Positions 4,020-34,512 of a DNA stretch of 34,645 bases are shown here, piece after piece (within the stretch, counting starts at the first letter, position 1; every line of letters starts with the position of its first letter). Under the pieces are notes generated by a model, which was not told where the DNA came from, did not search any database, and saw only the letters and a program-made list of their open reading frames with translations. A program made the translations under genes and the position numbers. The stretch lies in IMG/VR virus record IMGVR_UViG_3300037540_000234, positions 1-34,645 of that record, one strand, 5' to 3'. The DNA is from a virus.

Positions 4020-4517
4020 ATGGCGACAACGACAACCGTTACCACGACGACAACTACTACAGTTCCGCCGATGGAACGAACCTTCTATAGTACGGACGAA
4101 GACATAGAAAAAATTCGCCCGAACATTTTAGAATTAGGCGTAAGTGATTGGTTGACCCAGCATGAAGAGTCATTCGCTATAGTCAATCGCACGCTTATAG
4201 GTAAGTGGTATATTAATGTAGCTATTGAATATGGGCTTGACTATAGGGAAGTGGAGTTCGACCCAAACCTTGTAGACATTGACCAAGTAAGGCGGTTAGC
4301 TTCTTATAAAGCCCTTGAATTAATTTACCTATATCTAATGAAGGATAGCCCCGAAGCGGACGGGTTTGAACGCGAAATGTCTTTATTTCGCAATCGCTAT
4401 AACGACGAATTACTTGACTTGTTAGCCATTGGTATAAACTACGATTGGGACGAAGACGGTATAGTAGATGCAAGTGAAAAGTACGTACCGCAAATGCGCC
4501 GTCTTCATAGGGCGTAG
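4020..4517 (+). CDS. Head-tail connector (DUF1320/gp6-like adaptor) with N-terminal Thr tract
   Basis: Residues 3-15 are almost all Thr, ending VPP; the rest is an acidic, mainly helical protein of about 148 residues. STDEDIEKIRPNILELG resembles the start of DUF1320-type head-tail adaptors, and the helices with RRLASYKALELIYLYL and the Asp-rich DEDGIVDASE near the end also fit. Such proteins form the ring below the portal. The gene starts immediately after the preceding stop and precedes completion and terminator genes, as expected. It is the only protein here whose Thr tract sits at the extreme N-terminus. Functional call from order and general sequence character. Confidence 0.65.
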   Translation: MATTTTVTTTTTTTVPPMERTFYSTDEDIEKIRPNILELGVSDWLTQHEESFAIVNRTLIGKWYINVAIEYGLDYREVEFDPNLVDIDQVRRLASYKALELIYLYLMKDSPEADGFEREMSLFRNRYNDELLDLLAIGINYDWDEDGIVDASEKYVPQMRRLHRA

Positions 4518-5448: not shown

Positions 5449-5997
5449 ATGCCATTACCGCATGACGTAGAAAATTATGCCATAGGCAAAGGTATTCTTT
5501 ACGTTGCCGAATGGTCGGGCGGCGCGCCGGGCGCTTATCGTGATATAGGTAATTGCCCCAGCTTTGAACTCGAACCGACCCTTGAACGCTTACCCCATTA
5601 TTCAAGCCGAACTGGTTTTCGGACGAAGGATAAAAACCCCGTTATCCAAACGGAGTATACTTTAACTTTCGACCTTGACGAAATCGCGGCGGAGAATTTG
5701 AAGATATTTATTTTGGGGGACATAGCAGGCAACGTCTTAACCGCTATGACTAACGTAACGCGCGAATACGCGTTAAAGTTTATTAGCGATAACCCAGCAG
5801 GCCAAAACCAAACGTGGGAATTTTGGAAATGTACGTTGACCCCTAACGGCGCTATGCAGTTAATCGGTGAAGATTGGATGATTATGTCATTCAGCGCCGA
5901 AGGGTTAGCCGACGTTGCGAACCACGCTTCAAGCCCATACTTCAACATTACCGAAGCGACGACGACAACGACGACTACTACAACGACGACACCCTAA
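5449..5997 (+). CDS. Major tail (tube) protein with C-terminal Thr tract
   Basis: A 182-residue protein. The segments NCPSFELEPTLERLPHYSS and TEYTLTFDLDEIAAENLKIF resemble siphophage tail-tube proteins, which stack in hexamers to form the tube. The last 14 residues are a run of Thr ending in Pro, absent from usual tube proteins. Since the tube protein is present in many copies, that tail would place a Thr brush along the whole tail surface if it is exposed. Downstream come the chaperone pair and tape measure, the standard order. The tract uses mixed Thr codons. Confidence 0.78.
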   Translation: MPLPHDVENYAIGKGILYVAEWSGGAPGAYRDIGNCPSFELEPTLERLPHYSSRTGFRTKDKNPVIQTEYTLTFDLDEIAAENLKIFILGDIAGNVLTAMTNVTREYALKFISDNPAGQNQTWEFWKCTLTPNGAMQLIGEDWMIMSFSAEGLADVANHASSPYFNITEATTTTTTTTTTTP

Positions 5998-16834: not shown

Positions 16835-17118
16835 TGCCTACACTAACGCCTACACAATTAGAAAAGTTAAGATGGTCCGCGCAAAGCTGGACCGAAATAC
16901 TTGCAGAAAATATGCGAAGGCTTGAAGACACTTTGCTATATGTAACTTATATGCAAGATGTTAATGAAAGCGGGTTAGCGGACGGCGACGTTTTACAATG
17001 GAATGAAGGCGCTACCGAATGGCAAATGGAAAATTGGAAAACTATTTTTCCTTCGACGACAAGCACGACCACGACGACGGTTACGACTACGACGGTTACA
17101 ACTACAACCGTCCCATAG
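16834..17118 (+). CDS. Small tail protein, paralogue 1 of 3, with C-terminal Thr tract
   Basis: A 94-residue protein whose start overlaps the previous stop. Pattern: a TPTQLEKLRW start, then W..I...N...L...LL, DVNESGLADGDVLQWN and a closing W. Residues 75-94 form a Thr tract ending VP. The next two genes share this layout (aromatic, Asn, LL, DVN or DVD, L..GDVL), so all three come from one ancestor. GDVL followed by an aromatic and a short loop is a recurring beta-turn unit in phage fibre-type proteins. Role unknown; probably a small tail-tip or fibre-base subunit. Confidence 0.7.
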   Translation: MPTLTPTQLEKLRWSAQSWTEILAENMRRLEDTLLYVTYMQDVNESGLADGDVLQWNEGATEWQMENWKTIFPSTTSTTTTTVTTTTVTTTTVP

Positions 17119-17128
17119 GATAAATGAA

Positions 17129-17338
17129 ATGACTATACTAAACCCTACACAAATTGAAACCGCCGATTATGGAGTACCCGGCTGGGTCCATATCTTTAAT
17201 AAGAATTTTGACTTATTAAATTCTGTATTGTTAAGGATAGATCAACTTGTAGATGTTAACGACGATTACTTACCGGACGACGCGGTTTTAGTTTGGGACG
17301 CTTCGGCGGGTAAATGGAAACCAAAGGTATTTAGCTAA
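17129..17338 (+). CDS. Small tail protein, paralogue 2 of 3, no Thr tract
   Basis: A 69-residue protein. The frame is open further upstream, but that part is only the shifted reading of the previous gene's Thr tract. The ATG at 17129 follows a TAGGATAA ribosome-like site and gives MTILNPTQIE, matching the start type of its neighbours. Shared elements: WVHIFNKNF, LLNSVLLRID, DVNDDYLPDDAVLVWD, and a final Trp-Lys-Pro. Unlike the two neighbours it lacks a Thr tail. Its stop overlaps the next ATG (TAATG), so coupling is likely. Function unknown. Confidence 0.7.
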   Translation: MTILNPTQIETADYGVPGWVHIFNKNFDLLNSVLLRIDQLVDVNDDYLPDDAVLVWDASAGKWKPKVFS

Positions 17339-17625
17339 TGGCTTATACTACATTACCCAAAAGCGGTTTACGAATACCTACGACCTATGGTCAAACCGAT
17401 TGGTTAGGAACGTTTAACTATAACTTTACAAGGTTGAATAATACCTTGCTAAAGTATTCGGCGTTGCTGGACGTAGACACGGCGGGGCTTTCGAACGGGG
17501 ACGTATTACGTTATAACTCTTCGACGCAAAAGTTTGAAGTATTTACGCCGCCATACCCGGCGCAAAGTTCGACGACCACGACGACAACTACAACGGTTAC
17601 ATTTACTACAACCACAACTGTATAG
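17338..17625 (+). CDS. Small tail protein, paralogue 3 of 3, with C-terminal Thr tract
   Basis: A 95-residue protein starting in the overlap with the preceding stop. It shares with the two genes before it a WLGTFNYNFTRLNNTLLKY stretch, DVDTAGLSNGDVLRYN, and a following short strand. After PYPAQSS it runs into a Thr tract from about residue 77 with two Val and one Phe, ending in V. Codons for Thr are mixed. Downstream a TAGGAG site precedes the beta-propeller-like gene. Function unknown; a small fibre-base or spike subunit is the best guess. Confidence 0.7.
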   Translation: MAYTTLPKSGLRIPTTYGQTDWLGTFNYNFTRLNNTLLKYSALLDVDTAGLSNGDVLRYNSSTQKFEVFTPPYPAQSSTTTTTTTTVTFTTTTTV

Positions 17626-17636
17626 GAGTTAAGACA

Positions 17637-18512
17637 ATGGGACGCGAAGACCGAAACAAAGTAGAAATAGCTTTTGCTAAAGCGCCTTACTTTCGGCGTT
17701 GGGCTAAGGACGTTAACGAAGCAATAGAGGAAGGGACCGGCTTTACTTCGACCACGACGACGACGGTTACGACAACCACTTTTACTACAACTACTACAAC
17801 CATTCCCGAATATCTCACTTATGAAAATGTTTACGCGTGGAGTCAAGGCGGGGATGCCTTACGAAAGTTCGACGACTTTTCAGCAAGTCTTTTGCAGACA
17901 ATTACGGGCTGGCCTTTCCTTGCGGTTAAGTATGACTTAACGTTCGATAACGACGGTAATTTAATTTTTATGGATAAAGACATACCGCAAGCCGCGCGCT
18001 ATGTAGGCTTTAGTAAAACGCCTAATGGCTTCGTAACTAATATGCCGCCTTCGGACGGGCAAGGCATTTGTTGGAAACGTGATACAAATGACTTAATAGT
18101 TTTAGGCGTACCCGGCGTTAACAGTTATCAAATGTCAGGGTTTAGCAATACGATTGCTAATCAAATTGTAACGGCAAATATAACGGTAGCCGGTGCGCCG
18201 TATTCGGCGGCGTGGGACCATATAGAAAATAATCTTGTAGTAATTGAACCTTCGGCGGGTGACGGTATAGTATCAGTATTGAATGGCTTTAGTGAAGTAT
18301 TAGTAAATCGCTTTACTATTGGTAGTGCGGCAAGTGCGGGAATAGCAGTAGATCAAAACGGTGATTTATTAGTTATGATACCGGCGACGAATAGCGTTTA
18401 CAAACTTGCGGGACCAATATCTATAATTACTTCGCCGCAATTTGTACCCGGCAAACCTACATTTGCAGTAGGCGCGCCGCCGAATAGTTACTACATAACA
18501 GTAGGCCCATAA
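17637..18512 (+). CDS. Anchor motif + Thr linker + beta-propeller-like tail protein (291 aa)
   Basis: Three parts. Residues 1-35 have PYFRRWAKDVNEAIEEGTG, nearly the same as in the 57-residue protein at 3436. Residues about 37-57 are a Thr tract ending IP. Residues 58-291 have repeating strand units such as YDLTFDNDGNLIFMD, KRDTNDLIVLG and GIAVDQNGDLLVM, typical of NHL/SMP-30-like beta-propeller blades. The order suggests anchor, flexible stalk and binding head. A TAGGAG ribosome site precedes the ATG. Such a head might bind a host glycan or protein, but the ligand cannot be read from sequence. Confidence 0.7.
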   Translation: MGREDRNKVEIAFAKAPYFRRWAKDVNEAIEEGTGFTSTTTTTVTTTTFTTTTTTIPEYLTYENVYAWSQGGDALRKFDDFSASLLQTITGWPFLAVKYDLTFDNDGNLIFMDKDIPQAARYVGFSKTPNGFVTNMPPSDGQGICWKRDTNDLIVLGVPGVNSYQMSGFSNTIANQIVTANITVAGAPYSAAWDHIENNLVVIEPSAGDGIVSVLNGFSEVLVNRFTIGSAASAGIAVDQNGDLLVMIPATNSVYKLAGPISIITSPQFVPGKPTFAVGAPPNSYYITVGP

Positions 18513-18547: not shown

Positions 18548-21292
18548 ATGGCTGTAAAAAGGATAAAAAGAAAAAAAGGTAAGAAGGCGGTCAAGAAGGT
18601 TATCCGTTTAGCTAAAGGAACCTTTCAAGGTTCGCCGGGCGTGGGCGGCGGTAGAGGTAAGCTGTACCATGAGGAAGCCGGGGGGACGACCACGACCACG
18701 ACGACGGTTACGACTACGACCTTGACTACAACCAGTTCGACGCAAACCCTTACTACGTCTACGTCTACGGTAACGACCACGACTTCGACCCTTACGACCA
18801 CAACCACGCAACCGATTACTACAAGTACTTCGACAACCGTTACGACCACGACCACGCAAACGACAACCAGTTCGACACAAGCCCCGACAACCACTTCGAC
18901 CGTTACACAAACGACAACCACTTCGACCGTTACGACCACGACCGAACCAATTACTACAAGTACTTCGACAACCGTTACGACCACGACGACCCAAACGACA
19001 ACCACTTCGACGCTAACCACGACCACGCAAGCGCCGACGACGACAAGTACTTCGACAACTGTTACGACTACGACGACCCTGCAAATAACTACAACTACAT
19101 TCCCGGCTACTTGGTATAGTATATTAGATAATACGAAATGGGCCGCGCAAGTAGGACCGCCATTTACGGCAACATGGAACGGTAGCCAATGGGTATCAGC
19201 GCCTTACAGTTTTCAAGATTGGGTTTACCTTGTAGATGTTGGAACGTGGGTTAATAGCTATAGACCTTCGTGGGTCCGCGTTACTTGGTCGGGTCCGCAA
19301 TCGGCAAGTCAAATTTGGTTGAAGCTGGTTGACTCTAATGGAAGTACTATGTTCGGGGATACCTTAATAAGTAATGGTCAACCGGCTACGCTTTCCTTTA
19401 GTGAACCTTACGACATAGACAAACTGGAAATGCACGTAAGTTCAAATTGGCCCCAGCCGGTATTCGACGGGTTTTATATAGACAACATAGAATTTGGCTT
19501 CCCGCCGTCAACTACTACCAGTACTACGTCTTCGACGACGACAACCACTTCGACGGTAACGACGACGACCCTAATTACTACAACCACGCAAGCACCGACG
19601 ACCACTTCGACGGTAACGCAAACGACGACCACTTCGACGCTAACCACGACAACCACGCAAGCGCCGACGACCACTTCGACAAGCACTTCGACGACGACCA
19701 CTTCGACGCTAACCACGACAACCACGCAAGCACCGACGACCACTTCGACCGTTACCCAAACGACAACCACTTCGACGCTAACCACGACGACCACGCAAGC
19801 GCCGACGACCACGACTTCGACGGTTACTTCGACGACGACCACGACCACGCTAACCACGACGACGACCGAACCAATTACTACAAGTACTTCGACCACGCTA
19901 ACCACGACGACGACCACGACGACGGTTACTTTTACTACAACCACTACCGGGTACATTCCCGAAAGCCCCGCGTACTATGTGTTTAATGCTGGGAATGAAG
20001 GTTCACGCTGGGCGCAACCCGAATGGTTTTATGATAACGACGCGAATTATCAAACGTCGTTTGCCAGATATAGCGGGAATAGTGGAACGGCGACCTATAT
20101 TAATTTTACCGGAAACGATTGCCCCGGAACGGAGTTAGGGAAAATTACTAAAGTTGAATTAGTAGTTAAGCAAGCACAAGTCCCCGGTAACGATTTTGTA
20201 AATATGTTTCCGAAGTACAGCGGAGTAGACAACGGCGACACAATAAATCTATTATCGGCTGGGAATGGCACGCATACCTTTGACATTACCAATGATACGA
20301 ACGCGCCGGGTACTGGGAATTGGGAATGGTCGGATATAGTAAACCTTGATATAAGGTTTGACGTTAAAGGCTTCGGAACATATAATTATTACGGTTACTT
20401 TATACAAGTCAAAGTAACCTTTGAAAACTATACCACGACGACGACAAGTACTTCGACGACTTCGACCACGCAAACCCTTACAACCAGTACGGTTACGACG
20501 ACCACGTTAGCGCCGACTACTACAAGCACGACGACCCAAACGACAACCACTTCGACGCTAACCACGACCACGCAACCGATTACTACAACCACTTCAACCG
20601 TTACACAAACGACAACCACTTCGACGCTAACGACCACGACACAAGCGCCGACCACTACAACCAGTTCGACGACCCAAACGACGACAACCACTTCGACGCT
20701 AACGACGACGACCCTAATTACTACAACCACGTTAGCGCCGACCACGACGACCGTAACGCAAACCACTTCGACGACCACGACCCAAACGGAAACGACAACT
20801 ACTACAACGCTTCCTATAGGTGAAATAACCGGATACTTTAGCGGTCTTATAAGTAATTTCGGAATGGGTAATGTAGCAAATGTTTACGACGGTAACGAAA
20901 ATACTTATGGTTCGCGTTTGCCCGAAGGGACGGCGTACCCGATTTTTCGGACTCCTACAAATTCGGGCGGCGGTACTATTAGCAAAGTTGAATATAGAAT
21001 AAAAGGAAGAGATAGTAACGTAGGTACAAACTATATGGAACCGGATTACACGTTTTGCGATAATGGAAGTGGGGTAGGTAGTCAAAAGGATATAGACGAT
21101 TGGAGTTTACCCAGTGGTAGCGCGGCTTGGTCGGCATGGGAAGACATAACCGATGATACGAACGCGCCGGGTACTGGTAATTGGACATGGGCGGACGTTT
21201 TAGATATAAGAATAAAGGCATATTTGGATTGCCCGAACCCCGCCGACTTCTTTGACTTATATCAAATAGACGTTAGGGTAACTTCGGCTTAA
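18548..21292 (+). CDS. Multidomain fibre-like protein: three beta domains joined by Thr tracts (914 aa)
   Basis: The first 46 residues are strongly basic (KRIKRKKGKKAVKKVIRLAKG) then Gly-rich. Then alternate: Thr tract about 47-184; beta domain about 185-321 (jelly-roll/carbohydrate-binding appearance, WPQPVFDGFYIDNIEFG at its end); Thr tract about 322-467; beta domain about 468-627; Thr tract about 629-754; beta domain about 755-914. The second and third beta domains are related: both have DTNAPGTGNW followed by W-(S/A)-D-(I/V), then LDIR near their ends. Tracts contain Thr with Ser, Val, Leu, Gln, Pro and Glu. Probably a tail fibre or virion-surface adhesin with long extended linkers. No chaperone or autoproteolytic domain is visible. 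Confidence 0.7.
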   Translation: MAVKRIKRKKGKKAVKKVIRLAKGTFQGSPGVGGGRGKLYHEEAGGTTTTTTTVTTTTLTTTSSTQTLTTSTSTVTTTTSTLTTTTTQPITTSTSTTVTTTTTQTTTSSTQAPTTTSTVTQTTTTSTVTTTTEPITTSTSTTVTTTTTQTTTTSTLTTTTQAPTTTSTSTTVTTTTTLQITTTTFPATWYSILDNTKWAAQVGPPFTATWNGSQWVSAPYSFQDWVYLVDVGTWVNSYRPSWVRVTWSGPQSASQIWLKLVDSNGSTMFGDTLISNGQPATLSFSEPYDIDKLEMHVSSNWPQPVFDGFYIDNIEFGFPPSTTTSTTSSTTTTTSTVTTTTLITTTTQAPTTTSTVTQTTTTSTLTTTTTQAPTTTSTSTSTTTTSTLTTTTTQAPTTTSTVTQTTTTSTLTTTTTQAPTTTTSTVTSTTTTTTLTTTTTEPITTSTSTTLTTTTTTTTVTFTTTTTGYIPESPAYYVFNAGNEGSRWAQPEWFYDNDANYQTSFARYSGNSGTATYINFTGNDCPGTELGKITKVELVVKQAQVPGNDFVNMFPKYSGVDNGDTINLLSAGNGTHTFDITNDTNAPGTGNWEWSDIVNLDIRFDVKGFGTYNYYGYFIQVKVTFENYTTTTTSTSTTSTTQTLTTSTVTTTTLAPTTTSTTTQTTTTSTLTTTTQPITTTTSTVTQTTTTSTLTTTTQAPTTTTSSTTQTTTTTSTLTTTTLITTTTLAPTTTTVTQTTSTTTTQTETTTTTTLPIGEITGYFSGLISNFGMGNVANVYDGNENTYGSRLPEGTAYPIFRTPTNSGGGTISKVEYRIKGRDSNVGTNYMEPDYTFCDNGSGVGSQKDIDDWSLPSGSAAWSAWEDITDDTNAPGTGNWTWADVLDIRIKAYLDCPNPADFFDLYQIDVRVTSA
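18686..19099 (+). repeat. Threonine-tract repeat 1 of the 914-aa protein
   Basis: 138 codons, mostly Thr, with recurring sub-units such as TTSTSTTVTTTTTQ and TEPITTSTS. All four Thr codons are intermixed. Confidence 0.9.
19511..19948 (+). repeat. Threonine-tract repeat 2 of the 914-aa protein
   Basis: 146 codons. The sub-unit STLTTTTTQAPTTTSTVTQ recurs several times with silent differences. Confidence 0.9.
20432..20809 (+). repeat. Threonine-tract repeat 3 of the 914-aa protein
   Basis: 126 codons of Thr-rich sequence with LAPTTT, QPITTT and QAPTTT units, joining the second and third beta domains. Confidence 0.9.
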
Positions 21293-22159: not shown

Positions 22160-22483
22160 GTGAATGTTATCGAAGTTTCATTCGGTCAATATGCTGTACC
22201 CGTTATACTTACGGTAGTCTTGCAAGTTGTATTTAATTTCTTTCCGGTTATAGCCGATAGATGGAAATCAATTATAGCTATTTCTTTCGGTATCGCGTTA
22301 GGGCTTGTAGCAATTCCCTATAATGCTTTGCCGTGGACGGTAGTAAACATTGTGGACCATGCTATATACGGCTTCATGCTGGGCGCAAGCGCTGTAGGCA
22401 TTTACGAATTACAGCGCGCGGTTAGAAAACCGCGTAACGGTAACGGCGGACCCGTAGCACAACCGGCGCAACCCGCGCCTTAA
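22160..22483 (+). CDS. Putative holin (107 aa)
   Basis: Hydrophobic segments at about 9-27, 34-52 and 60-80 end in an IYGFMLGASAVGIYELQRA stretch typical of small phage holins, which open the inner membrane at lysis. The C-terminus is Pro/Ala-rich. The start is uncertain: an in-frame stop at 22145 leaves only the GTG at 22160 as a usual codon, yet the AAAGGGGG ribosome site overlaps it. A rare ATC start at 22169 would have better spacing. An out-of-frame ATG at 22164 leads only to a 17-codon peptide. Confidence 0.6.
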   Translation: MNVIEVSFGQYAVPVILTVVLQVVFNFFPVIADRWKSIIAISFGIALGLVAIPYNALPWTVVNIVDHAIYGFMLGASAVGIYELQRAVRKPRNGNGGPVAQPAQPAP

Positions 22484-24058: not shown

Positions 24059-24511
24059 ATGTCAGAATACGACCCGCAATACCCAGTATTCGAATGTTGC
24101 ATTAACTTAGTTAATTCGGCGGACCTATCCAGCCATGAACGCAAAAAGGAAGCGGACATTATAGGAACGCGTAAACATGGTTTAGTGACGGGGGTAGGAA
24201 ATAAGGAAACGAAAGAACGTCTATGGTTGCTTGTCGAAGGTTTAGAGGAAACCGAATTGGGTTTGTTAGGAATGACTTTGATTGACCCCGACCCCGACGG
24301 CGAAGCATACGACAAACGCCGCTACTGCATAACATTAGCACGTTTACAAGAAGTATACCCCGCGCTTAATATAGCACGCTGTAGGGATTTTAACGACGCG
24401 TATCAACCCTTCTTAACTCTTGACGGGGACGACTACACTTTCCTAACAGAAGAGATTCCTTTACAAGCAAATGGTCTTATCTACGATAAATACATAGGGG
24501 AATATCTATAA
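24059..24511 (+). CDS. Hypothetical protein (150 aa)
   Basis: A soluble protein with CINLVNSADLSSHERKKEAD near the start, WLLVEGLEETELGLLGM in the middle, and an acidic end with TLDGDDYTFLTEE. The AAAAGGAA ribosome site is adequate. Its stop overlaps the start of the 1223-residue gene (TAATG), so the two may be translated together in a set ratio. That would fit a dedicated chaperone or accessory protein for the giant fibre-like protein, an inference from order only. Confidence 0.55.
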   Translation: MSEYDPQYPVFECCINLVNSADLSSHERKKEADIIGTRKHGLVTGVGNKETKERLWLLVEGLEETELGLLGMTLIDPDPDGEAYDKRRYCITLARLQEVYPALNIARCRDFNDAYQPFLTLDGDDYTFLTEEIPLQANGLIYDKYIGEYL

Positions 24512-27500
24512 TGACTACAAGTAGGCGTACAGGAACTAATGAAAATATAAATAGCTACGGCGGCGCGGGTCAAGGCCGTGATTATACTTTACTTGGAAAC
24601 TGGGAAGCCGATACGGATTATGGGCTTGTCGCCGCGACCACTTCGGAAGTAGTTGAATGTTACGCGGATAGCGCAAGCTTCGACGATTACTTAGACCGTA
24701 TAAACGGCGCGGTTACGAATAGTAGCTATTTTAGAATTGTTCGACCCGCTGGAACGCCGGGAGCCGTGGGCTGGCAAGGACACGACGGCACGCCGAACAA
24801 TGGTTTTAAGTTGGAAAGTACGGTTGACGACGACGTTTTTAATATGGACGAAGATTACTTGTCTATACAAGACATAATTGCTTCATTAGATTTAAACAGT
24901 TCTACTGCTAACGACCATTTTAAAATGGACGACGGACCTAATAATACAATGGAGTGTATAGGTTGTATTGCGGGTCCTTCGGTTAATGCCGGTTCGGGTA
25001 CTTTTTGGGGCTTTGAATGTCAATGCGACGTTGATACGGATTACTTTGTAGTTAATTGTATAGCTATTGATTGCGATAACTTCGGCTTCGAAATGGATGG
25101 ACCGGGCGACCTATATGCCTATAACTGCACGGCTGTAAATTGCGACGAAGGTTTTACAGAAAACGACGGCGTATTAACTTGTATGAATTGTCTTGCAGAT
25201 AATTCGACAAGCGCCGATTTTGTTGGTTCGCCTGCGGGTGACTATAACGCTTCGGGCGACGCTACAGCGCCGGGGGCTAATAGCCGAATAAATCAAACCT
25301 TTACTTTTAAAAATGCAGGGTCGAATGACTACCGTTTAGCTAAAACGGACGCGGGAGCAAAAGACTTCGGTAGTGATTTGTCAAGTGACGGTACATTCCC
25401 TTTCGACGACGATATAGAATTTCAACATAGACCCGGCGCGGCTACAGGCTGGGACATTGGCTTTGACGAAGTAACGACGACGACCACGACGACGACCACG
25501 ACGACGACTTCGACGACGACTACTTCTACGTCAACCGTTACCACTACTACGTTTACGACGACGACTACAACTACCGTGCCGTGGTATTTGTTAAACGATT
25601 TTCAAGTAATTACTTGTTCGGTGTCAAGCGGGACCCGCGCCGATACATGGACCGACAACGGCGTACATTTAGTATTAAACGAATGTACGGGGACCCCGGC
25701 CTTTGACTATAACTTTATCTTTAAAGACATTCCAGCCGGGGTAAATAAAATAGGTATTCGGCTGGACGGTAGGTATCAAGGCAACCCCGGACATATTGTT
25801 AAGCTAAGGGTATATAACTACAATACAACTTTATGGGATGATCTAACCGCCGAAACAAGAGATATACCCCACGAAACAACCGACCAAGACTATGTTTGGT
25901 ATTTAGATTTTGGTGCGGATTATAAAAGCGGAAATGAATTTAGATTAAAGATAATTCATACAGGCGGCGGCACTACAAGCCATGACTTATATATAGATTA
26001 CTTATGGCTTGACCAAAACTATACTACAACCACGACGACGACTTCGACGACGACCACGACTTCGACGGTTACTACAACCACGCAAGCGCCTACTACTACT
26101 ACGTCTACGACGGTTACGACCACGACGACCCAGCCGCCCACGACAACCACTTCGACGGTTACTTCGACGACAACCACTTCGACCGTAACGACCACAACCC
26201 TTTTGACTACAACCAGTTCGACGACGGTTACGACAACCACTTCGACGACGACCACGACGACCGAACCAATTACTACAACCACTTCGACGGTAACTTCGAC
26301 GACGACCACTTCGACCGTTACCACGACGACCCTAATTACTACAACCACTTCGACGACCCAAACCACGACGACGACCGTTACTTCGACGACCACAACCACG
26401 GAACCGCCGACCACGACCACGACGACCGTTACTTCGACGACCACAACTTCGACCCAAACGACAACCACTTCGACGGTAACTGAAACGACAACCACTTCGA
26501 CCGTAACGACCACGACGCTAATTACTACAACCAGTTCGACGACACAAACGACGACGACGACGACCTTTACCACGACCACGACACTTTTGACTACAACCAC
26601 TTCGACCGTTACGACGACGACCCTAACCACGACGACAAGCACTTCGACCGTTACGACGACGACCCTAACGACCACGACAACCCAGCCGATAACTACAACC
26701 ACTTCGACGGTAACGCAAACGACAACCACTTCGACGGTAACGACTACAACCCTTTTGACTACAACCAGTTCGACGACGGTTACGACCACGACCCTAACGA
26801 CCACGACGACCGTAACTGAAACGACGACCACTTCGACGGTTACAACCACGACCCAAACCACGACGACAAGTACTTCGACGGTTACGACTACAACCCAGCC
26901 GCCGACCACGACCACGACAACCGTTACCCAAACGACGACCACTTCGACCGTTACCACGACGACCGTAACTGAAACGACGACCACTTCGACGGTTACGCAA
27001 ACGACAACCACTTCGACCCAAACGACGACGACCACGGAACCGCCGACGACCACGACGACGACCGTTACCCAAACGACAACCACTTCGACCGTTACAACCA
27101 CGACCCTAATTACTACAACCAGTTCGACGACGATTACTTCGACGACCACGACGACGGTTACTTCGACGACGCTAACCACGACCACGACCCAGCCGCCCAC
27201 GACCACGACGACAACCGTAACCCAAACTACTACAACGTCTTCGACGGTTACGACCACGACCCTAATTACTACAACCAGTTCGACGACGGTTACGACCACG
27301 ACCCAAACGACAACCACTTCGACCGTTACCCAAACGACGACAACCAGTACCTTTACTACAACCACAACCGAACCAATTACTACAACGTCCACGGTAACGC
27401 AAACCACTTCGACAAGCACTTCGACGGTTACGACTACAACGCAAACGACGACCACGACCCAGCCGCCCACGACCACGACGACAACCGTTACCCAAACGAC

Positions 27501-28182
27501 AAGCACTTCGACGACGACTTCGACGACCGTTACCGAAACGACCACGACGACAACCGTTACCCAAACGACAACCACTTCGACGGTAACGACCACAACCGAA
27601 CCAATTACTACAACGTCCACGGTAACGCAAACCACGACCACGACGACCGTAACCCAAACGACCACGACGACCCAAACTGAAACGACAACCACTTCGACGG
27701 TTACGACTACGACCCAAACCCAAACGACCACGACGACCGAACAAATAACTACAACCACTTCGACCGTTACCCAAACGACAAGCACTTCGACGGTAACGAC
27801 GACAACCCTTTTGACTACAACCACGCAAACGCAAACGACGACCACGACCCAAACCCAAACCACTACAACCAGTACAGTTACGCAAACGACAAGCACGACG
27901 CTAACGACCACGACCACGCAAACCCTTACCACTTCTACGGTTACGACCACGACCCAGCCGCCGACGACCACTTCGACGACCGTAACCCAAACTACTACAA
28001 CGTCTTCGACCGTTACCACGACGACGCTTTCGACGACTTCAAGTTCTACGGTTACGACGACGACAATAACTTTTACTACAACCACGACCTTTCCTTATAC
28101 GGTCGCTTCCTTAATTATTAGGGCAAAGAAAAAAGTTACAATCGTTAGGGTAAAACAAAAAATTACTAATAGCGGAGGGTAA
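24511..28182 (+). CDS. Giant beta-helix and poly-threonine surface protein (1223 aa)
   Basis: Order: domain of about 320 residues with a right-handed beta-helix look, seen as a Cys/Ala ladder (ECIGCIAG, FECQCDV, VNCIAIDCDNFGFEM, YNCTAVNCDEGF, LTCMNCLADN); Thr tract about 322-355; beta-sandwich domain about 357-503 ending LYIDYLWLDQNY; a Thr tract about 505-1193; then a short hydrophobic and basic end (VASLIIRAKKKVTIVRVKQK). Thr dominates the long tract, with Ser, Val, Leu, Gln, Glu and Pro. The composition is mucin-like and would be extended. It is probably a virion-surface fibre; the beta-helix could bind or cut polysaccharide, but no catalytic residues are identified. The basic end may anchor it. 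Confidence 0.72.
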   Translation: MTTSRRTGTNENINSYGGAGQGRDYTLLGNWEADTDYGLVAATTSEVVECYADSASFDDYLDRINGAVTNSSYFRIVRPAGTPGAVGWQGHDGTPNNGFKLESTVDDDVFNMDEDYLSIQDIIASLDLNSSTANDHFKMDDGPNNTMECIGCIAGPSVNAGSGTFWGFECQCDVDTDYFVVNCIAIDCDNFGFEMDGPGDLYAYNCTAVNCDEGFTENDGVLTCMNCLADNSTSADFVGSPAGDYNASGDATAPGANSRINQTFTFKNAGSNDYRLAKTDAGAKDFGSDLSSDGTFPFDDDIEFQHRPGAATGWDIGFDEVTTTTTTTTTTTTSTTTTSTSTVTTTTFTTTTTTTVPWYLLNDFQVITCSVSSGTRADTWTDNGVHLVLNECTGTPAFDYNFIFKDIPAGVNKIGIRLDGRYQGNPGHIVKLRVYNYNTTLWDDLTAETRDIPHETTDQDYVWYLDFGADYKSGNEFRLKIIHTGGGTTSHDLYIDYLWLDQNYTTTTTTTSTTTTTSTVTTTTQAPTTTTSTTVTTTTTQPPTTTTSTVTSTTTTSTVTTTTLLTTTSSTTVTTTTSTTTTTTEPITTTTSTVTSTTTTSTVTTTTLITTTTSTTQTTTTTVTSTTTTTEPPTTTTTTVTSTTTTSTQTTTTSTVTETTTTSTVTTTTLITTTSSTTQTTTTTTFTTTTTLLTTTTSTVTTTTLTTTTSTSTVTTTTLTTTTTQPITTTTSTVTQTTTTSTVTTTTLLTTTSSTTVTTTTLTTTTTVTETTTTSTVTTTTQTTTTSTSTVTTTTQPPTTTTTTVTQTTTTSTVTTTTVTETTTTSTVTQTTTTSTQTTTTTEPPTTTTTTVTQTTTTSTVTTTTLITTTSSTTITSTTTTTVTSTTLTTTTTQPPTTTTTTVTQTTTTSSTVTTTTLITTTSSTTVTTTTQTTTTSTVTQTTTTSTFTTTTTEPITTTSTVTQTTSTSTSTVTTTTQTTTTTQPPTTTTTTVTQTTSTSTTTSTTVTETTTTTTVTQTTTTSTVTTTTEPITTTSTVTQTTTTTTVTQTTTTTQTETTTTSTVTTTTQTQTTTTTEQITTTTSTVTQTTSTSTVTTTTLLTTTTQTQTTTTTQTQTTTTSTVTQTTSTTLTTTTTQTLTTSTVTTTTQPPTTTSTTVTQTTTTSSTVTTTTLSTTSSSTVTTTTITFTTTTTFPYTVASLIIRAKKKVTIVRVKQKITNSGG
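25474..25575 (+). repeat. Short threonine tract joining beta-helix and beta-sandwich
   Basis: 34 codons, mainly ACG/ACC/ACT/ACA with Ser, Val and Phe, followed by VP and the next domain. Confidence 0.9.
26023..28089 (+). repeat. Very long threonine-tract repeat (about 689 codons)
   Basis: About 2.07 kb of Thr-rich coding sequence built from varying units such as TTTTSTVTQTTTTSTVTTTT followed by LITTTSSTT, QPPTTT or EPITTT. Units are imperfect and silent differences are frequent, so it is not a recent simple expansion. The regular three-base period keeps all six frames largely open. Confidence 0.95.
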
Positions 28183-28187: not shown

Positions 28188-28529
28188 TTGCCAATTAGAA
28201 TTAGAAGCCGAAAGCAAAGTTTTGAACGCTACTATATCGCGGGTAGCATTATAGGGGTACAGCAAGACCCGGCTGAAAAAATTGTACTGGGAAGTAGCAT
28301 AGTATCAGCTATAGACAATGCCGGGGACGACGCGTCAACCGTGATTCTAAACCAAGCTTCAAAAAGACTTGACTCGGACCCAAAAGCGGAGTATACAAGC
28401 AATATGCTTTCAATCCAAGTCATTGACGGGGACCCGGAAAAATCCCCGTATCAAGTTACCTTTCGAATGGAAACCAATTACGGGAACCGCTTCGAAGCAG
28501 ATATGCGCGTAGGAGTAAACGAAATTTGA
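28188..28529 (+). CDS. Small beta-rich phage protein (113 aa), TTG start
   Basis: Starts at TTG behind a CGGAGGG ribosome site, 5 bases after the giant gene's stop. Basic N-terminus (PIRIRSRKQSFERYY), a helix with EKIVLGSSIVSAIDNAG, then a strand-rich end with LSIQVIDGDPEKSPYQVTFRM and an acidic finish. No membrane segment or signal peptide. Compact proteins of this form occur near phage tail genes, but I cannot name a family. It overlaps the start of the cytochrome-like gene by 4 bases (TTGA), linking the fibre and cytochrome genes in one transcript. Confidence 0.6.
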   Translation: MPIRIRSRKQSFERYYIAGSIIGVQQDPAEKIVLGSSIVSAIDNAGDDASTVILNQASKRLDSDPKAEYTSNMLSIQVIDGDPEKSPYQVTFRMETNYGNRFEADMRVGVNEI

Positions 28530-28786
28530 AATCCCTTTTAGTTATTGTCTCAATCCTATTACTTATAGACATAGCCGTAAACGCTGGGCCTAACTGGACC
28601 CGCGCGAATGGCGAAAATGTTTTTTATGGTTGCGTCGATTGCCATAACAAAGGGACCTATAAAAAGGTATGGTCCCGCTTAGGTTCGGAACGCTTACACG
28701 TTAGGCACGAAGCATTAAACGCGGAGTGCTTTTTTTGTCATTCCTACGAACGCTTTGACTTTAAAGTATTGGAGGTATTAAAATGA
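28526..28786 (+). CDS. Exported dihaem c-type cytochrome-like protein (86 aa)
   Basis: Starts at TTG overlapping the previous stop. Residues 1-20 form a signal peptide (LLVIVSILLLIDIAVNA, probable cut after Ala20). The mature part of about 66 residues has two CxxCH haem-attachment motifs: CVDCH at 36-40 and CFFCH at 68-72. Between them is RLHVRH, giving His58 and His61, arranged as H..H......C..CH, the spacing common in multihaem cytochromes where those His are distal haem ligands. So each of two haems could have two His ligands. Haem attachment would need the host periplasmic maturation system. The next gene starts inside its end (ATGA) and is also exported. A zinc-binding role is possible but fits the signal peptide and motif spacing less well. 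Confidence 0.75.
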   Translation: MKSLLVIVSILLLIDIAVNAGPNWTRANGENVFYGCVDCHNKGTYKKVWSRLGSERLHVRHEALNAECFFCHSYERFDFKVLEVLK

Positions 28787-29478
28787 AAAAATTTCTAATT
28801 CCTTTTTTGTTCACGCTTTTGATTTTTCCTTTTACTTCATTCGGCGGCGAATGGCCTTTAGATTTAGAATGGGATAGCTACGAACAGCAAGCAGAAGCTA
28901 CCCATTTTGAATTACACGAAGCCGCAAACGCCGGGGGTCCTTATGACGATAGTACTATAGTCATGCCTAATATAAGCCCTTCGTCTTTGACTACAATTAC
29001 GTACACTTCGACGAAGCCCGACGGCGTAGCAACTACAACCCATTTTATTTTAAAAGCTGTAGGCACGAACGGCGAAAAGTCGGACCCTTCTAACGAAGTC
29101 CCGTTTACTTATGACTTCGCGCCGATAGTCCCGGCGACCGCCTTTACAGCAACGTTAGACGGCGACGACGTACAGTTTACATGGACACAAGCGGACATTG
29201 ACCGCGTTTTAAAATGGGTCCTGTATCAAAGCGAAACGCAAGGCGTTGACTATATCGAATTGGGCGACATTATTTATACGGGTCAACCGGGTCCCCAGTA
29301 TTCGACCATTGAAACTATGAGCGTCCCCGAAGGCGAAATGAAGACGTTCTATTTTGTCTTAGTTACCTTTACAAAGTTCAATGTCTTTAGTCAAAACTCT
29401 ATGGAAGTTTCGGTAACGATAGACAAGAGAAAACCCGCGCCGGTTTATAACTTGCGGATTAAAGTAACCACGCAATAA
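28783..29478 (+). CDS. Exported protein with fibronectin type III-like domains (231 aa)
   Basis: A signal peptide covers about residues 1-21 (KKFLIPFLFTLLIFPFTSFG). Two beta-sandwich repeats of FN3 type follow: about 23-112, ending in FILKAVGTNGEKSDPSNEV, and about 115-215, with VQFTWTQADIDRVLKWVLYQS and FYFVLVTFTKFNVFSQNS. The tail is basic (KRKPAPVYNLRIKV). The gene is coupled to the cytochrome-like gene by a 4-base ATGA overlap and its stop overlaps the next ATG, with a TTGGAGGTAT ribosome site. Most virion proteins are made without signal peptides, so this pair is more likely to act in the envelope of the infected cell. Function unknown. Confidence 0.7.
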   Translation: MKKFLIPFLFTLLIFPFTSFGGEWPLDLEWDSYEQQAEATHFELHEAANAGGPYDDSTIVMPNISPSSLTTITYTSTKPDGVATTTHFILKAVGTNGEKSDPSNEVPFTYDFAPIVPATAFTATLDGDDVQFTWTQADIDRVLKWVLYQSETQGVDYIELGDIIYTGQPGPQYSTIETMSVPEGEMKTFYFVLVTFTKFNVFSQNSMEVSVTIDKRKPAPVYNLRIKVTTQ

Positions 29479-29954
29479 TGTTTGACGAAGTAAAAGAACT
29501 TCTTTTTGAAATTATTACTACAGGCGAAAACGCCGAACAAAGTATCAAAGCCGTTCAACAGTTAGGCGTTTCGATTACTAATGCTGTAGCTAAGAACGGC
29601 GTCAATATTATACAACTACAAAACGTAGTTCAAACCAAAGTAATTAAGAACGCCGTCAAATGCCTACAATTAATGGACGGTTACAAACAGACTTACCCGG
29701 CGTTACCTATGGAACGCCGCACGCCGATAATAGTAGGCAATCAAAGCGAAGAGGTTTTGAAACCGGACGAAGCATTTAAAAATTTCGTTCGTGCCGACCT
29801 TAACGACCAATTAACTTTAGAACAATTTTTAAATAGAGTAATCAAAATATATTTGACTCATGCTTTAGAGAAGTACGGCGACAAGCAAATAGCCGCCGAA
29901 AAAATTGGCATTAAAGTAAACACATTTGACCGGCTTCATAACGAAGCAAAATAA
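29478..29954 (+). CDS. Fis-type helix-turn-helix protein (158 aa)
   Basis: The N-terminal 110 residues are helical and unrecognised. The C-terminus has the Fis/HTH_8 form: TLEQFLNRVIKIYLTHALEK, then YGDKQIAAEKIGIKVNTFDR, matching the pattern helix, '.gn...AA..LGI...T..r'. Such domains bind DNA in Fis and in sigma-54 activators. There is no ATPase domain, so it is not a full activator. It starts in the stop of the FN3 gene (TAATG) and precedes the glycan locus, so it could regulate late or host genes, or organise DNA. That is inference. Confidence 0.65.
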   Translation: MFDEVKELLFEIITTGENAEQSIKAVQQLGVSITNAVAKNGVNIIQLQNVVQTKVIKNAVKCLQLMDGYKQTYPALPMERRTPIIVGNQSEEVLKPDEAFKNFVRADLNDQLTLEQFLNRVIKIYLTHALEKYGDKQIAAEKIGIKVNTFDRLHNEAK

Positions 29955-30008
29955 ATTTCATAAACGCCGCCCGGCCTACGGGTAAAGGCATTGAAAGGAG
30001 TTAGCAAA

Positions 30009-31280
30009 ATGAATGTAGCTATACTTACCAACTTTCAAGATTTTAATCCCGGCTATTCCTTAACTTCAATCGTTCAAGATCAAATCGAAATGTTAACCCG
30101 GCATGGAAACGAAGTACACTTGTTTGTATGCGAAGTCTACAACCCAGCGTATGACCCGAAGTGGCCTAAAGGCATGGTCATGCACAAGCTAACCCCCTTC
30201 GGCGAATTGATTGACTACAAAACAAAGAATGACATAACTAAAGATCATTATGCCTTAGCCGAAAAAACAAGGGACGTTCTAAATGCAAAGTTTGCCGAAC
30301 TGAATATAGACATAGCATTTACCCATGATTGGATTTTTACCGGCTGGAACTTGCCCTATGCGCGCGGTATTGCTATGTCTTCGCCGACCTTGCGCGACAT
30401 TCGCTGGCTTCATTGGGTCCATTCTGTACCAAGTCAAAAATACGATTGGTGGAATATAAAGGAATACGGTCGGCAACATAAAATAGTATTCCCTAATTCG
30501 ACCGATGCGCTTAGAGTAGCCGAAGCATACAAAGGCGAATTAGAAGACATTAGAGTAATCCCGCACATTAAAGACCTTCGAAGCTTCTACGAATTTGACG
30601 ACGAAACCCGGCGCTTTATAGACGACCATCCCGCCGTAATGCAAGCCGACTTTATTCAAGTGTACCCAGCTTCAAGCGATAGACTACAAGCAAAGGGTAT
30701 AGATATTTTGTGCGATATATTCGGCGCGGTTAAGGAACGTAACTTGAAAGTTTGTTTAGTGATTGCTAACCAGTGGGCTACAGGCAAAGAGCAAAAGCAA
30801 CGGTTAGACAAATACTATAAACTTGCGGCGCGTAAGGGTTTAAGCCGGGACGACGAATTTATTTTTACTTCGGAATGGGACAAAAAATACGAAACAGGAA
30901 TACCCCGTAAGATACTTCGGGAATTACTGCTTTGTTCTAATGTCTTCATTTTTCCAACTACCGAAGAGTCATTCGGTTTGGTCGGTCCCGAAGCGGCGTT
31001 AGCTGGTAACTTCATGGTTTTGAATTACTCACTTTATATGATGCGCGAAGTATTCGGCGGCATAGGGCTTTACCATGACTTCGGGTCTTTTCATAATGCC
31101 TTTACGCCGCCGCATAAAGACTACTACAAAGACTTAGCTACAATCATCTTAGGACGTATGTATAATAATGAAGCAATTCGGACGAAGACGTTTTGCCGTA
31201 AGGCGTATAACATGGACGCCTTATATTTACATATCTACGAACCTTTAATGATGGAGTCTGAAACATGGGCGGACAAATAG
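30009..31280 (+). CDS. Glycosyltransferase, GT-B fold, family 4-like (423 aa)
   Basis: I choose the ATG at 30009 because an AAAGGAG site lies 8 bases before it; the TTG at 29991 would place that site inside the gene. The N-terminal domain starts MNVAILTNFQDFNPGYSLTS and includes FTHDWIFTGWNLPYARG. The C-terminal domain has FIFPTTEESFGLVGPEAALAG, with the EX7E pattern of GT4-type retaining enzymes that bind the sugar nucleotide. No signal or membrane segment, so it acts in the cytoplasm. It begins the glycan locus. Acceptor unknown: candidates are host surface polysaccharide or the phage's own Thr-rich proteins. It overlaps the next gene by 16 bases. Confidence 0.8.
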   Translation: MNVAILTNFQDFNPGYSLTSIVQDQIEMLTRHGNEVHLFVCEVYNPAYDPKWPKGMVMHKLTPFGELIDYKTKNDITKDHYALAEKTRDVLNAKFAELNIDIAFTHDWIFTGWNLPYARGIAMSSPTLRDIRWLHWVHSVPSQKYDWWNIKEYGRQHKIVFPNSTDALRVAEAYKGELEDIRVIPHIKDLRSFYEFDDETRRFIDDHPAVMQADFIQVYPASSDRLQAKGIDILCDIFGAVKERNLKVCLVIANQWATGKEQKQRLDKYYKLAARKGLSRDDEFIFTSEWDKKYETGIPRKILRELLLCSNVFIFPTTEESFGLVGPEAALAGNFMVLNYSLYMMREVFGGIGLYHDFGSFHNAFTPPHKDYYKDLATIILGRMYNNEAIRTKTFCRKAYNMDALYLHIYEPLMMESETWADK

Positions 31281-31771
31281 AATTAGGTCATAGTGTAGTA
31301 GTAGGCAATCGTACCCGCTTCGGAAATTTTATAGTTGTCGAAGACGGGGTAAAGATCGGTAACAATGTAGTTATCGAAAACTTTGTCGAAATTATGGAAG
31401 GGTCCATAATTGGTGATAACTGCTTAATCCGTTCGTTTACTCGCATAGGTCCCGGTAACGTTATAGGCAAAAACGTTATCGTAAAGTGTAGCGCCATTAC
31501 AGGACCGGAAGTCGAAATAGCGGATAACTGCTTTATAGGTCCGCAAGCAATTTTCTTTTCGGACCTTACAAGCAAAGTTTCCCAAACCTTTATAGACATT
31601 GGGGCCTTTATTGGCGGGGGTTCGCGGGTAATGCCGGGCTTACATTTAGGTAAAGACATATTTGTAGGCGCGGCTTCATTCGTTAATAAAGACATTCCAG
31701 ACGGCGAACTATGGATAGGCAATCCAGCGAAGAGGAAAGGCAAAAATGAGTATAAACAGTTTTGGCTATAA
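31265..31771 (+). CDS. Left-handed beta-helix (hexapeptide) acyltransferase 1
   Basis: A 168-residue protein made almost wholly of hexapeptide repeats ([IV]-G-x-x-x-x): VVVGNRTRFG, VKIGNNVVI, SIIGDNCLI, NVIGKNVIV, VEIADNCFIG. The closing IPDGELWIGNPAKRKG is typical of sugar acetyltransferases of the WbpD/WbbJ type. Such trimeric enzymes transfer acetyl or other acyl groups to amino sugars or glycans. It overlaps the genes on both sides, and the next gene is of the same fold. The exact substrate cannot be read from sequence. Confidence 0.8.
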   Translation: MGGQIELGHSVVVGNRTRFGNFIVVEDGVKIGNNVVIENFVEIMEGSIIGDNCLIRSFTRIGPGNVIGKNVIVKCSAITGPEVEIADNCFIGPQAIFFSDLTSKVSQTFIDIGAFIGGGSRVMPGLHLGKDIFVGAASFVNKDIPDGELWIGNPAKRKGKNEYKQFWL

Positions 31772-32306
31772 AGGTATTAGTCCCTATTGCTTTGTCTATG
31801 ATGATAAGGCAATAGGGCAAGGCACGAAGATCGAACACGGCGCTATAGTTGAACCGGGCGCGCTTGTAGGAAAGAATTGCTTTATAGGTTACTATACAGT
31901 TATTAGGCCGGGCGTTGTCTTAGCTGATAACTCGCAAGTTAGGTATAGCTGTTACGTAGCCGAAGGCGCGCAAATAGGAGAACATACCCATATTTTTCAA
32001 TATAGTAATATCGGTAAAGATACAATTATTGAAGACAAGGTATGGATAGGTGCTAAGGTAATGATTACTAACACCCCGAACATAGCGCACCTACGCCCAT
32101 TTGCTACAAAAATATTCCCGCCTATAATCAAGTACGGCGCGCGTATTGCTTCTTGTGCAATCATAAACCCCGGCGTAACTATAGGGCGTAACGCTTCAAT
32201 AGGTTCGGGGGCTGTAGTTACTAAGGACATTCCAGACGGCGAAGTATGGTTCGGCAACCCGGCAAAGTTTATAAGGAAAGTAAAAGCTAACGAAGTCATT
32301 GACTAA
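31746..32306 (+). CDS. Left-handed beta-helix (hexapeptide) acyltransferase 2
   Basis: A 186-residue hexapeptide-repeat protein (KAIGQGTKIEHGAIV, ALVGKNCFIG, AQIGEHTHI, NIGKDTIIEDKVWIGAKVMI, VTIGRNASIGSGAVV), ending KDIPDGEVWFGNPAKF. It starts inside the preceding acyltransferase gene. His-containing GEHTHIFQYSNIG near residues 79-91 may include the catalytic base, by analogy with LpxA/WbpD-like enzymes. The two adjacent enzymes probably acylate different positions or sugars. Followed by a TAGGAGG site and the second glycosyltransferase. Confidence 0.8.
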   Translation: MSINSFGYKGISPYCFVYDDKAIGQGTKIEHGAIVEPGALVGKNCFIGYYTVIRPGVVLADNSQVRYSCYVAEGAQIGEHTHIFQYSNIGKDTIIEDKVWIGAKVMITNTPNIAHLRPFATKIFPPIIKYGARIASCAIINPGVTIGRNASIGSGAVVTKDIPDGEVWFGNPAKFIRKVKANEVID

Positions 32307-32322
32307 TAGGAGGTAACAAAAA

Positions 32323-33258
32323 ATGAGAATACTATTTTTAAGTCCTAACCAAAGTCATAGATGGAATAGGGGACACCAATTATTTAGGGACGAAATAGCC
32401 CGTCAACATGAAGTCATTTTCGTAGGCGAAGGCTACGACCAAGTAGGCGAATTGAAGCCGCCTTACGACGTACCCGAACTTTTGGAATTACTACAAGACT
32501 TAGATTTTGATTTTATCTTTACCTATGGCTTGAAGTATACCTACCCCTATCACGGTCTTGACAAGATTAACATTCCTAAAGTGCAATTCATTTGTGATTT
32601 TGTCCCGGCTGTACCCGGCTATCAAGGGACCATTGACCCGTACTGTAATTTTTTTAAACGCGACAAGTACGACGTTTACTTCTCATTGTCGGTAGGAGTC
32701 ATGCGAAGCCTTGAACACCGGGGCTTCGGGAAGGAAGGCGAAAACGTTTTTTTCCTACCGTTCGGGGTAGATACTAATTTACACTTCGACCAAGAGAAGC
32801 CCCGACCTATTGACGTTATGACAAGCAGTAGTAAACATGATGCTATATACCCACTAAGGAATAAGCTTGAAATTGCTACAAAGGAATTAGGGGTCAACCA
32901 CTTCGGGCAAAGGGTCTTCGGGGACACGTTCATAGATAAAATGAATGAAGCAAAAATAGGAGTTAACGCCCTAAGCATTTATGAAAGAATGAATATGAAA
33001 ATACCCGAAGTCATGGCGTGCGGGGCTTTATGCTTTACTGATTACCCCGAAGAGTTTAACCGGCTGGGTTTTAAAGATGAAAAGCATTTAGTCATTTACG
33101 AAAATATAAATGACTATAAAGAAAAAATTATATGGTATCTTGAAGAGGAAGACAAACTAACCAAGATAGCTAAGGCCGGTCAAAAGTATGTAACCCGTTA
33201 TCATTCAAACGAAGTCCGCGTAAAGGAAATGACCAAATGTCTTCAAGCTTGGATATAA
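32323..33258 (+). CDS. Glycosyltransferase, GT-B, CgeB / Glyco_trans_1_2-like (311 aa)
   Basis: Strong AGGAGG site. It starts MRILFLSPNQSHRWNRGHQ, has FDFIFTYGLKYTYPYHG and VQFICDFVPAVPGYQG in the first half, FFLPFGVDTNLH near the domain boundary, and MNMKIPEVMACGALCFTDYPEEF in the second half, the usual nucleotide-sugar end of this family. The final helix is IKE-type and charged. Cytoplasmic. The gene overlaps the next one by 22 bases. Together with its neighbours it probably builds a short glycan; sugar and acceptor unknown. Confidence 0.75.
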   Translation: MRILFLSPNQSHRWNRGHQLFRDEIARQHEVIFVGEGYDQVGELKPPYDVPELLELLQDLDFDFIFTYGLKYTYPYHGLDKINIPKVQFICDFVPAVPGYQGTIDPYCNFFKRDKYDVYFSLSVGVMRSLEHRGFGKEGENVFFLPFGVDTNLHFDQEKPRPIDVMTSSSKHDAIYPLRNKLEIATKELGVNHFGQRVFGDTFIDKMNEAKIGVNALSIYERMNMKIPEVMACGALCFTDYPEEFNRLGFKDEKHLVIYENINDYKEKIIWYLEEEDKLTKIAKAGQKYVTRYHSNEVRVKEMTKCLQAWI

Positions 33259-34001
33259 CTACAACGGCGACGCTTCGGCCTAAGCTATTACTTAGGACGC
33301 TGGAAAGCTTTCATTTAGGAATGTTAACGGGGGTTAGCTGTAGACATATTATAAATGTTGATCTAATAGGCGACGACCACTACAGCGCGTGGGACGTTAT
33401 AAATATTTCTAAAAGATATTTTGATAATGTTGACTTTAGTATAAACGCGCAACCCCACTTTGCAAAAGCCTTCCTAACGGTTTGGAACCAAGTTGATACA
33501 GACTATTTTTTCCATCTTGAAGACGATTGGAAATTACTTAAGTCAATCGACCTATCTGAAATGATTAAGACAATGGAGTTAATACCGGACTTAGCTATAT
33601 TGCGTTTACCCTTTATGGACGCTAAGGAAAAAGAAGCGTTACAATGGAATAGATACTTTCCTTATAACGGGTCCTTTATGGAATGTCCCTTAGAATTGCG
33701 CGGGGCTATTGGCTATAGTGGACACCCCAGCTTAATTAAAAGGGCGTGGCTTAAGCAAGTACTTCCTTTACTTAACGCGGACGGTTGCCCCGAAAAGCAA
33801 ATCAAGGGACATAACCCGGTCATGCTAAACGTGCTAAACCAGTGGCGTTACGGCGTTTGGCAAAAGCCATTAGAGAAAAAAGCTATTGTAGATATTGGTC
33901 GAAAGTGGCGCGAAGATTTTGGGTTTATAAAAAACGGCGCATACGGTTTTACTAACTGGAAGAGGAAAAAAGATAATGGCGCGACAATCGTTAGCCCATA
34001 G
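33237..34001 (+). CDS. Glycosyltransferase, GT-A-like with EDD motif (254 aa)
   Basis: Early segment LDITTTATLRPKLLLRTLESF resembles the start of family 2-type transferases (a short strand then a helix). WNQVDTDYFFHLEDDWKLL places a metal-binding acidic motif at Glu95-Asp96-Asp97. The ILRLPFMDA, SFMECPLELRGA and GYSGHPSLIKRAWL parts form the acceptor half. Length is that of a single catalytic domain. No membrane anchor. It begins inside the preceding gene and overlaps the following methyltransferase. Family assignment is tentative but the glycosyltransferase fold is likely. Confidence 0.7.
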   Translation: MSSSLDITTTATLRPKLLLRTLESFHLGMLTGVSCRHIINVDLIGDDHYSAWDVINISKRYFDNVDFSINAQPHFAKAFLTVWNQVDTDYFFHLEDDWKLLKSIDLSEMIKTMELIPDLAILRLPFMDAKEKEALQWNRYFPYNGSFMECPLELRGAIGYSGHPSLIKRAWLKQVLPLLNADGCPEKQIKGHNPVMLNVLNQWRYGVWQKPLEKKAIVDIGRKWREDFGFIKNGAYGFTNWKRKKDNGATIVSP

Positions 34002-34512
34002 GTTCGAAGGTAAAAACGGCGGCGTATTCATAATGAAGCACGAACAAAAAGCCGTTAAGGAATGTATTGAAGTCATTCAAGAAATGCAAGTAGATTTAAT
34101 CATAGAGTTAGGCACGTATAGGGGCGGCTTTACAAAGCTTTTAAATGAAGCTATTCCTAATGCTGAAATACATACGTTTGACTTGGCTAACGAAACCAAT
34201 GCTGTTAGAAAATTTTTTAGTGGTAATGTAGTATTCCATAATGAAGACGTTTTAGAAAAATGTTTGCCATTAATGCACTTATTGAGTAGGCAAGAAAAAA
34301 AATTACTATATTGTGATAACGGGAAAAAGCGAAAAGAAGTAGCTATGTATTCGTGGCAATTAAACCCGCTTGATTATATAGGCGTCCATGATTGGCGGTT
34401 TGAAATATTCCCGAAAGACGTTGACGATTATTTACTACACTGGAAAAACTTTAACCATAACCGTTTAGCTATAAGCGGGTCTACGTCCCGCTTTTGGCAG
34501 AAGCCAAGATAA
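33976..34512 (+). CDS. SAM-dependent methyltransferase (178 aa)
   Basis: The glycine-rich SAM loop is visible as DLIIELGTYRGGFTKLL, and an acidic residue at the end of the second strand in AEIHTFDLANE. Later elements are LLYCDNGKKRKEV and DYIGVHDWRFE, similar to the small methyltransferase/cephalosporin-hydroxylase-like class in sugar clusters. The start at 33976 overlaps the previous gene and has a purine-rich AGAGGAAAA site. ATG 34033 is an alternative that would drop 19 residues. It probably methylates a sugar of the glycan made by this locus. Confidence 0.75.
   Translation: MARQSLAHRFEGKNGGVFIMKHEQKAVKECIEVIQEMQVDLIIELGTYRGGFTKLLNEAIPNAEIHTFDLANETNAVRKFFSGNVVFHNEDVLEKCLPLMHLLSRQEKKLLYCDNGKKRKEVAMYSWQLNPLDYIGVHDWRFEIFPKDVDDYLLHWKNFNHNRLAISGSTSRFWQKPR

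Follow-up and report, generated by a model that had tools for sequence, protein, structure and literature searches.

What a gene for a small, apparently exported protein with two haem-attachment motifs could be doing in a phage genome is the question raised by positions 28526–28786 of the DNA analysed here. The whole stretch (the window) is a 34,645-base virus record, IMGVR_UViG_3300037540_000234 of IMG/VR. It belongs to a tailed phage: its capsid protein matches the SU10-type Pfam profile, and the window also encodes tape measure, tail assembly and central tail proteins (PHROG matches). An earlier note had reported at this position, on the plus strand, a reading frame for 86 residues with a signal peptide, two CxxCH motifs and two more His residues; all of these features were confirmed.

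Gene Neighbourhood and Expression Signals

The genes of the window that bear on this question are the following.

969–1406, endolysin-like gene
22160–22483, holin-like gene
24511–28182, fibre-like gene
28188–28529, plus strand, gene for a 113-aa protein, upstream of the candidate gene and overlapping its start
28526–28786, plus strand, candidate gene for a putative exported dihaem c-type cytochrome (86 aa, TTG start)
28783–29478, plus strand, gene for a 231-aa protein, downstream of the candidate gene and coupled to it

The TTG start of the candidate gene overlaps the stop codon of the 113-aa gene (TTGA), and a Shine-Dalgarno-like AGGAG lies 10 nt upstream of it. At the other end, the stop codon overlaps the ATG of the next gene (ATGA), which is preceded by GGAGG. 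Over positions 28526–28786 there is a single open frame only, with a codon score of 0.118 (0.01–0.18 in the other genes of the window). That the gene is expressed is suggested by its place in the operon and its codon usage; judged from the DNA itself, it is an intact and tightly packed gene of the late operon.

The gene had been placed in a late operon between a fibre gene and an FN3 gene. The late operon holds, but the gene does not directly follow the fibre-like gene, since the 113-aa gene intervenes; distant homologues of the latter adjoin fibre-like genes in two related loci (L134 and L016). The FN3 label of the downstream gene is not borne out, as its 231-aa product has no match in Pfam or PHROG and none above cut-off in NCBIfam. 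This product has a signal-peptide-like N-terminus and homologues in L127 and L097.

Further downstream, at 29478–29954, a 158-aa protein is encoded, the C-terminus of which weakly resembles the HTH end of RtcR/PspF-like regulators (PADLOC, E 0.0002); no relative of it was found in IMG/VR. It is followed by a cluster of glycosyltransferases, hexapeptide acyltransferases and a methyltransferase-like gene (29991–34512), which is partly common to the phage records G009, G014, G019 and G022. Thr-rich stretches (TTTTTTVTTTT), mostly terminal, occur in at least nine proteins of the window (3436–3609, 4020–4517, 5449–5997, 9191–10567, 16834–17118, 17338–17625, 17637–18512, 18548–21292 and 24511–28182). 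Taken together with the downstream glycan genes, they suggest glycosylated, mucin-like virion proteins. The fibre-like genes of L016 and L134 have Ser-rich stretches in place of the Thr-rich ones. An N-terminal segment, RRWAKDVNEAIEEGTG, is common to the genes at 3436–3609 and 17637–18512, one of which directly follows the capsid gene.

Among 395 genomes of one bacterial phylum, the capsid gene pointed to a single possible host, a Desulfovibrio MAG. The related capsid gene lies at a contig end of this MAG, and therefore a Desulfovibrio-type host is only hinted at.

Layout of the Encoded Protein

The full protein is MKSLLVIVSILLLIDIAVNA-GPNWTRANGENVFYGCVDCHNKGTYKKVWSRLGSERLHVRHEALNAECFFCHSYERFDFKVLEVLK. 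Its features are listed below.

28526–28585, plus strand, putative signal peptide, residues 1–20 (cut placed after VNA by hydropathy and the −3/−1 rule)
28631–28645, plus strand, first CxxCH, C36VDCH40
28697–28708, plus strand, HVRH with H58 and H61, the sole spare His residues and proposed distal haem ligands
28727–28741, plus strand, second CxxCH, C68FFCH72

Export, a property of c-type cytochromes, is predicted by hydropathy and the cut-site rule. The N-terminus MKSLLVIVSILLLIDIAVNA, followed by GP, looks like a signal peptide, with V-x-A just ahead of the predicted cut, and 15-residue hydropathy peaks at 3.1 at residue 4 and does not exceed 0.3 in the mature part. The mature part contains exactly four Cys and four His residues, arranged as CxxCH-x17-HxxH-x6-CxxCH. 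Both haem-attachment motifs (C36–H40 and C68–H72) are complete, and the two spare His residues, placed as in real cytochromes, could serve as distal ligands. Chance alone would give about 0.7 occurrences of a single CxxCH in the window, so only the combination of motifs counts. The chance value for two CxxCH in the shuffled mature sequence is 2.1e-5; at the DNA level the window has one occurrence of the full pattern, and 100 shuffles gave none.

Haem or Zinc Binding

Cys and His residues so arranged could also belong to an exported zinc-binding protein, the two CxxC(H) and the HxxH holding one or two zinc ions. Zinc ribbons typically contain CxxC pairs, and weak matches were obtained with zf-CHY (E 0.28; 12.1 bits, cut-off 31.3) and zinc_ribbon_6 (E 0.40; 11.1 bits, cut-off 27). 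These families are, however, outscored in Pfam by cytochrome c7 (PF14522, E 0.002) and class III cytochrome c (PF02085, E 0.019). The profile search proposed earlier thus ranks cytochrome families at the top, but below their curated cut-offs (18.3 vs 24.8 bits and 15.8 vs 22.9 bits, respectively), and the two CxxCH fall short of the three or four haem sites of these families. No HNH match was found in Pfam, and no family match above curated cut-off in Pfam or NCBIfam. An exported dihaem c-type cytochrome, as claimed in the earlier note, is still the best reading of the sequence; membership of a named family is not supported at a best Pfam E of 0.002, below cut-off.

A profile of the dihaem module, built from the window protein and a second phage protein (L162, described below), matched 25 distinct sequences of solved structures (E up to 10), the best being an MtrC-type decahaem protein (E 0.018). 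All 25 are haem-c proteins, an outcome partly to be expected, as the motif dominates the profile. AlphaFold2 run without a deep alignment gave a mean pLDDT of 46, and neither the prediction nor the fold search was informative. The most independent test of haem binding is the spacing itself. Of the 395 genomes from the Desulfovibrio MAG's phylum, 13 contain the exact layout, always in frame and within cytochromes having 6–12 CxxCH, and a reversed control pattern occurs in none. This layout is therefore used by real multihaem cytochromes.

The His residue after both CxxC pairs, together with exactly two further His, also speaks against a zinc protein, and in cells with a maturation system an exported CxxCH protein tends to be given haem. 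Bacterial CcsBA links haem even to short CXXCH peptides (PMC8112865), so attachment requires hardly more than the motif. The haem reading is well supported by these comparisons, and the 86-aa protein is very probably a dihaem c-type cytochrome. Zinc binding is the less likely of the two and, taken as an explanation of the gene as a whole, decidedly unlikely.

Distribution among Related Phages and Bacteria

Related phages are numerous, with the capsid gene matching at least 80 IMG/VR loci. In four long records (G009, G014, G019 and G022) the capsid is 75–84% identical, and the tail genes and the first glycosyltransferase are common to all. According to tblastn, a lipoprotein is present in three of these four relatives and the exported gene downstream of the candidate gene in two. 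The candidate gene itself is absent from all four of these syntenic relatives. Beyond the homologue of the 113-aa gene, gene content varies among relatives; in G012 another small exported protein comes next. No contig of a closer relative spanning the region was found. Owing to its absence from the four relatives and the variable gene content at this site, the candidate gene looks like an accessory insertion, one that phages of this group can do without.

Neither peptide patterns nor tblastn revealed a close homologue in IMG/VR, GenBank phages, plasmids, GTDB genomes or 50 related phage records. The neighbouring genes, used as bait in IMG/VR, likewise yielded nothing, and the candidate protein had no match to defence families. 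Of the features expected of a phage auxiliary (moron) gene, two are present, namely the location within a phage genome (capsid, tail genes, overlapping neighbours) and accessory status. The third, a clear host homologue, is lacking: nothing similar beyond the motif was found in bacterial genome contigs or the 395 genomes. Descent from a particular bacterial cytochrome was considered and is not supported, as similarity does not rise above that of shuffles once the motif positions are left out. The C-terminal part of L151 resembles the candidate protein, but this is a lead only.

In about 1.8 Mb of related phage DNA (partly redundant), one other ORF with two or more CxxCH was found, a low-complexity Cys-rich repeat. 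The Cys-rich repeat protein (CHDCHNCHDC...), with many CxxCH, is encoded in relative G019 (L103, 5058–5600, minus strand), and a repeat of similar kind occurs in L169; these show no evident export signal and are probably not cytochromes. In relative G009 an exported gene sits in the position of the window's gene downstream of the candidate gene and is followed by a gene for a Cys-cluster protein (CVRCGWCC; L089, 9587–10000, plus strand), which we take to resemble YkgJ-type proteins.

A Second Phage Protein of the Same Design

The exact layout was found in six stretches of IMG/VR, among which the only convincing protein is an exported one of 136 aa. It is encoded on two contigs, nearly identical and 201 and 183 kb long (L162 and L164), directly after an endolysin gene, and comprises a Pro-rich linker and a C-terminal dihaem module. 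Its best profile matches, too, are cytochrome c7 and class III cytochrome c. By its predicted features, a second phage lineage thus has an exported protein of the same dihaem design. A stand-alone exported dihaem cytochrome was found neither in PHROG families nor in GenBank phages, which, together with this single further protein of exact layout in IMG/VR, supports the rarity of the gene type in phages proposed before. In a looser motif scan of IMG/VR no further convincing case was present among the matches listed, and an alignment-based search with the L162 protein confirmed none of 75 pattern matches; more phage cases may exist in IMG/VR. The same type of protein is undescribed in the open-licence literature searched, and an earlier report is possible.

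Kinship of the two phage proteins was not upheld. A BLASTP E of 7e-6 between them reflects mostly the motif by which L162 was chosen, and motif residues common to both are no evidence of descent for the same reason. The two proteins are not significantly similar outside the motif (p 0.18), nor does the similarity without the motif positions exceed that of shuffles, so descent from L162 is not supported.

Possible Role in Infected Cells

The best explanation, put forward tentatively, is a periplasmic bis-His dihaem cytochrome that is matured by the host and carries electrons in infected cells. The protein would be a c-type cytochrome reduced to the minimum, exported and carrying two bis-His haems, equivalent to a single dihaem module as present inside larger multihaem cytochromes. 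Haem could be attached to both CxxCH in the periplasm by the host's own cytochrome c maturation system, with H58 and H61 as distal ligands. Late in infection, the mature protein of 66 residues could then carry electrons from one host redox partner to another, and the accessory (moron) gene would sustain respiration or redox balance until lysis. If the protein is granted to be a dihaem cytochrome, an electron-carrier role is somewhat favoured by analogy.

The same haem protein could act at the envelope instead, where it would mimic or bind multihaem receptor cytochromes of the host and thereby block superinfection, or else condition the envelope jointly with the exported gene next to it. The candidate gene adjoins this exported gene and lies near the fibre-like gene, the second phage gene directly follows an endolysin gene, and a surface cytochrome, OmcA, is reported to be required by one phage that infects Shewanella (Grenfell et al. 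2023, as cited in PMC12977616). However, neither a lipoprotein signal nor a surface anchor is seen in the 86-aa protein, and this role is judged unlikely. Very improbable is a decoy, that is, an abundant exported CxxCH protein that loads the cytochrome c maturation of the host or sequesters haem and so lowers respiration. CXXCH peptides do inhibit cytochrome c synthases in vitro (PMC8112865), and the protein is scarcely more than motif and linkers, but two well-placed spare His in a real bis-His layout would be needless for this purpose and the gain for the phage is not evident. The least probable reading is a chance or passing acquisition without a role and in the course of being lost. The lack of the gene in the four syntenic relatives would fit it; the gene's own ribosome-binding site, the overlaps with both neighbours, its phage-like codon usage and the lack of a close bacterial source do not, and give it a settled rather than a recent look.

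The candidate gene is filed here as a putative accessory phage electron-transfer gene. As an electron carrier, it may be a case in which a virus supplies the electron wiring of the infected cell or hijacks it. An intact exported dihaem protein would mean either that phages directly contribute a periplasmic electron carrier or that they engage the cytochrome machinery of respiring bacteria. It is conceivable, if doubtful, that more than one phage lineage encodes a minimal, exported dihaem cytochrome that stands alone, by which periplasmic electron transport of the host is rewired or exploited; the window phage and the L162/L164 phage would then be two independent cases.

Comparison with Known Systems

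Cytochrome c7 and class III cytochromes c (PF14522, PF02085, PF14537) resemble the window protein in being small and exported, with CxxCH and HxxH-type His residues and bis-His ligation, which is presumed here. They differ in having three or four haems instead of two, and the window protein scores below their cut-offs. Dihaem modules of bacterial multihaem cytochromes (L288–L300) have the identical spacing CxxCH-x17-HxxH-x6-CxxCH; these are, however, parts of proteins with 6–12 CxxCH, whereas the window protein stands alone and has no significant similarity to them outside the motif. The 136-aa protein of L162/L164 is likewise the product of a phage gene with an export signal and the same dihaem layout, but it has an extra N-terminal region, a Pro-rich linker and an endolysin neighbour and belongs to a different phage.

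Phage genes feeding electron transport are known from photosynthesis. Sulphur oxidation provides another example (PMC8190135), and in a survey of virus genes in oxygen-poor waters no cytochrome electron carriers were reported in phages (PMC8115048). Among phage-borne c-type cytochrome genes, the closest precedent that was found is soxD, interpreted as an auxiliary metabolic gene. Its product is an enzyme subunit of sulphur oxidation with host homologues; the second cytochrome motif is missing from both phage copies, and the first from one of them (PMC8190135). Unlike phage soxD, for which host homologues exist, the window gene has none that could be found, and its protein has both motifs intact.
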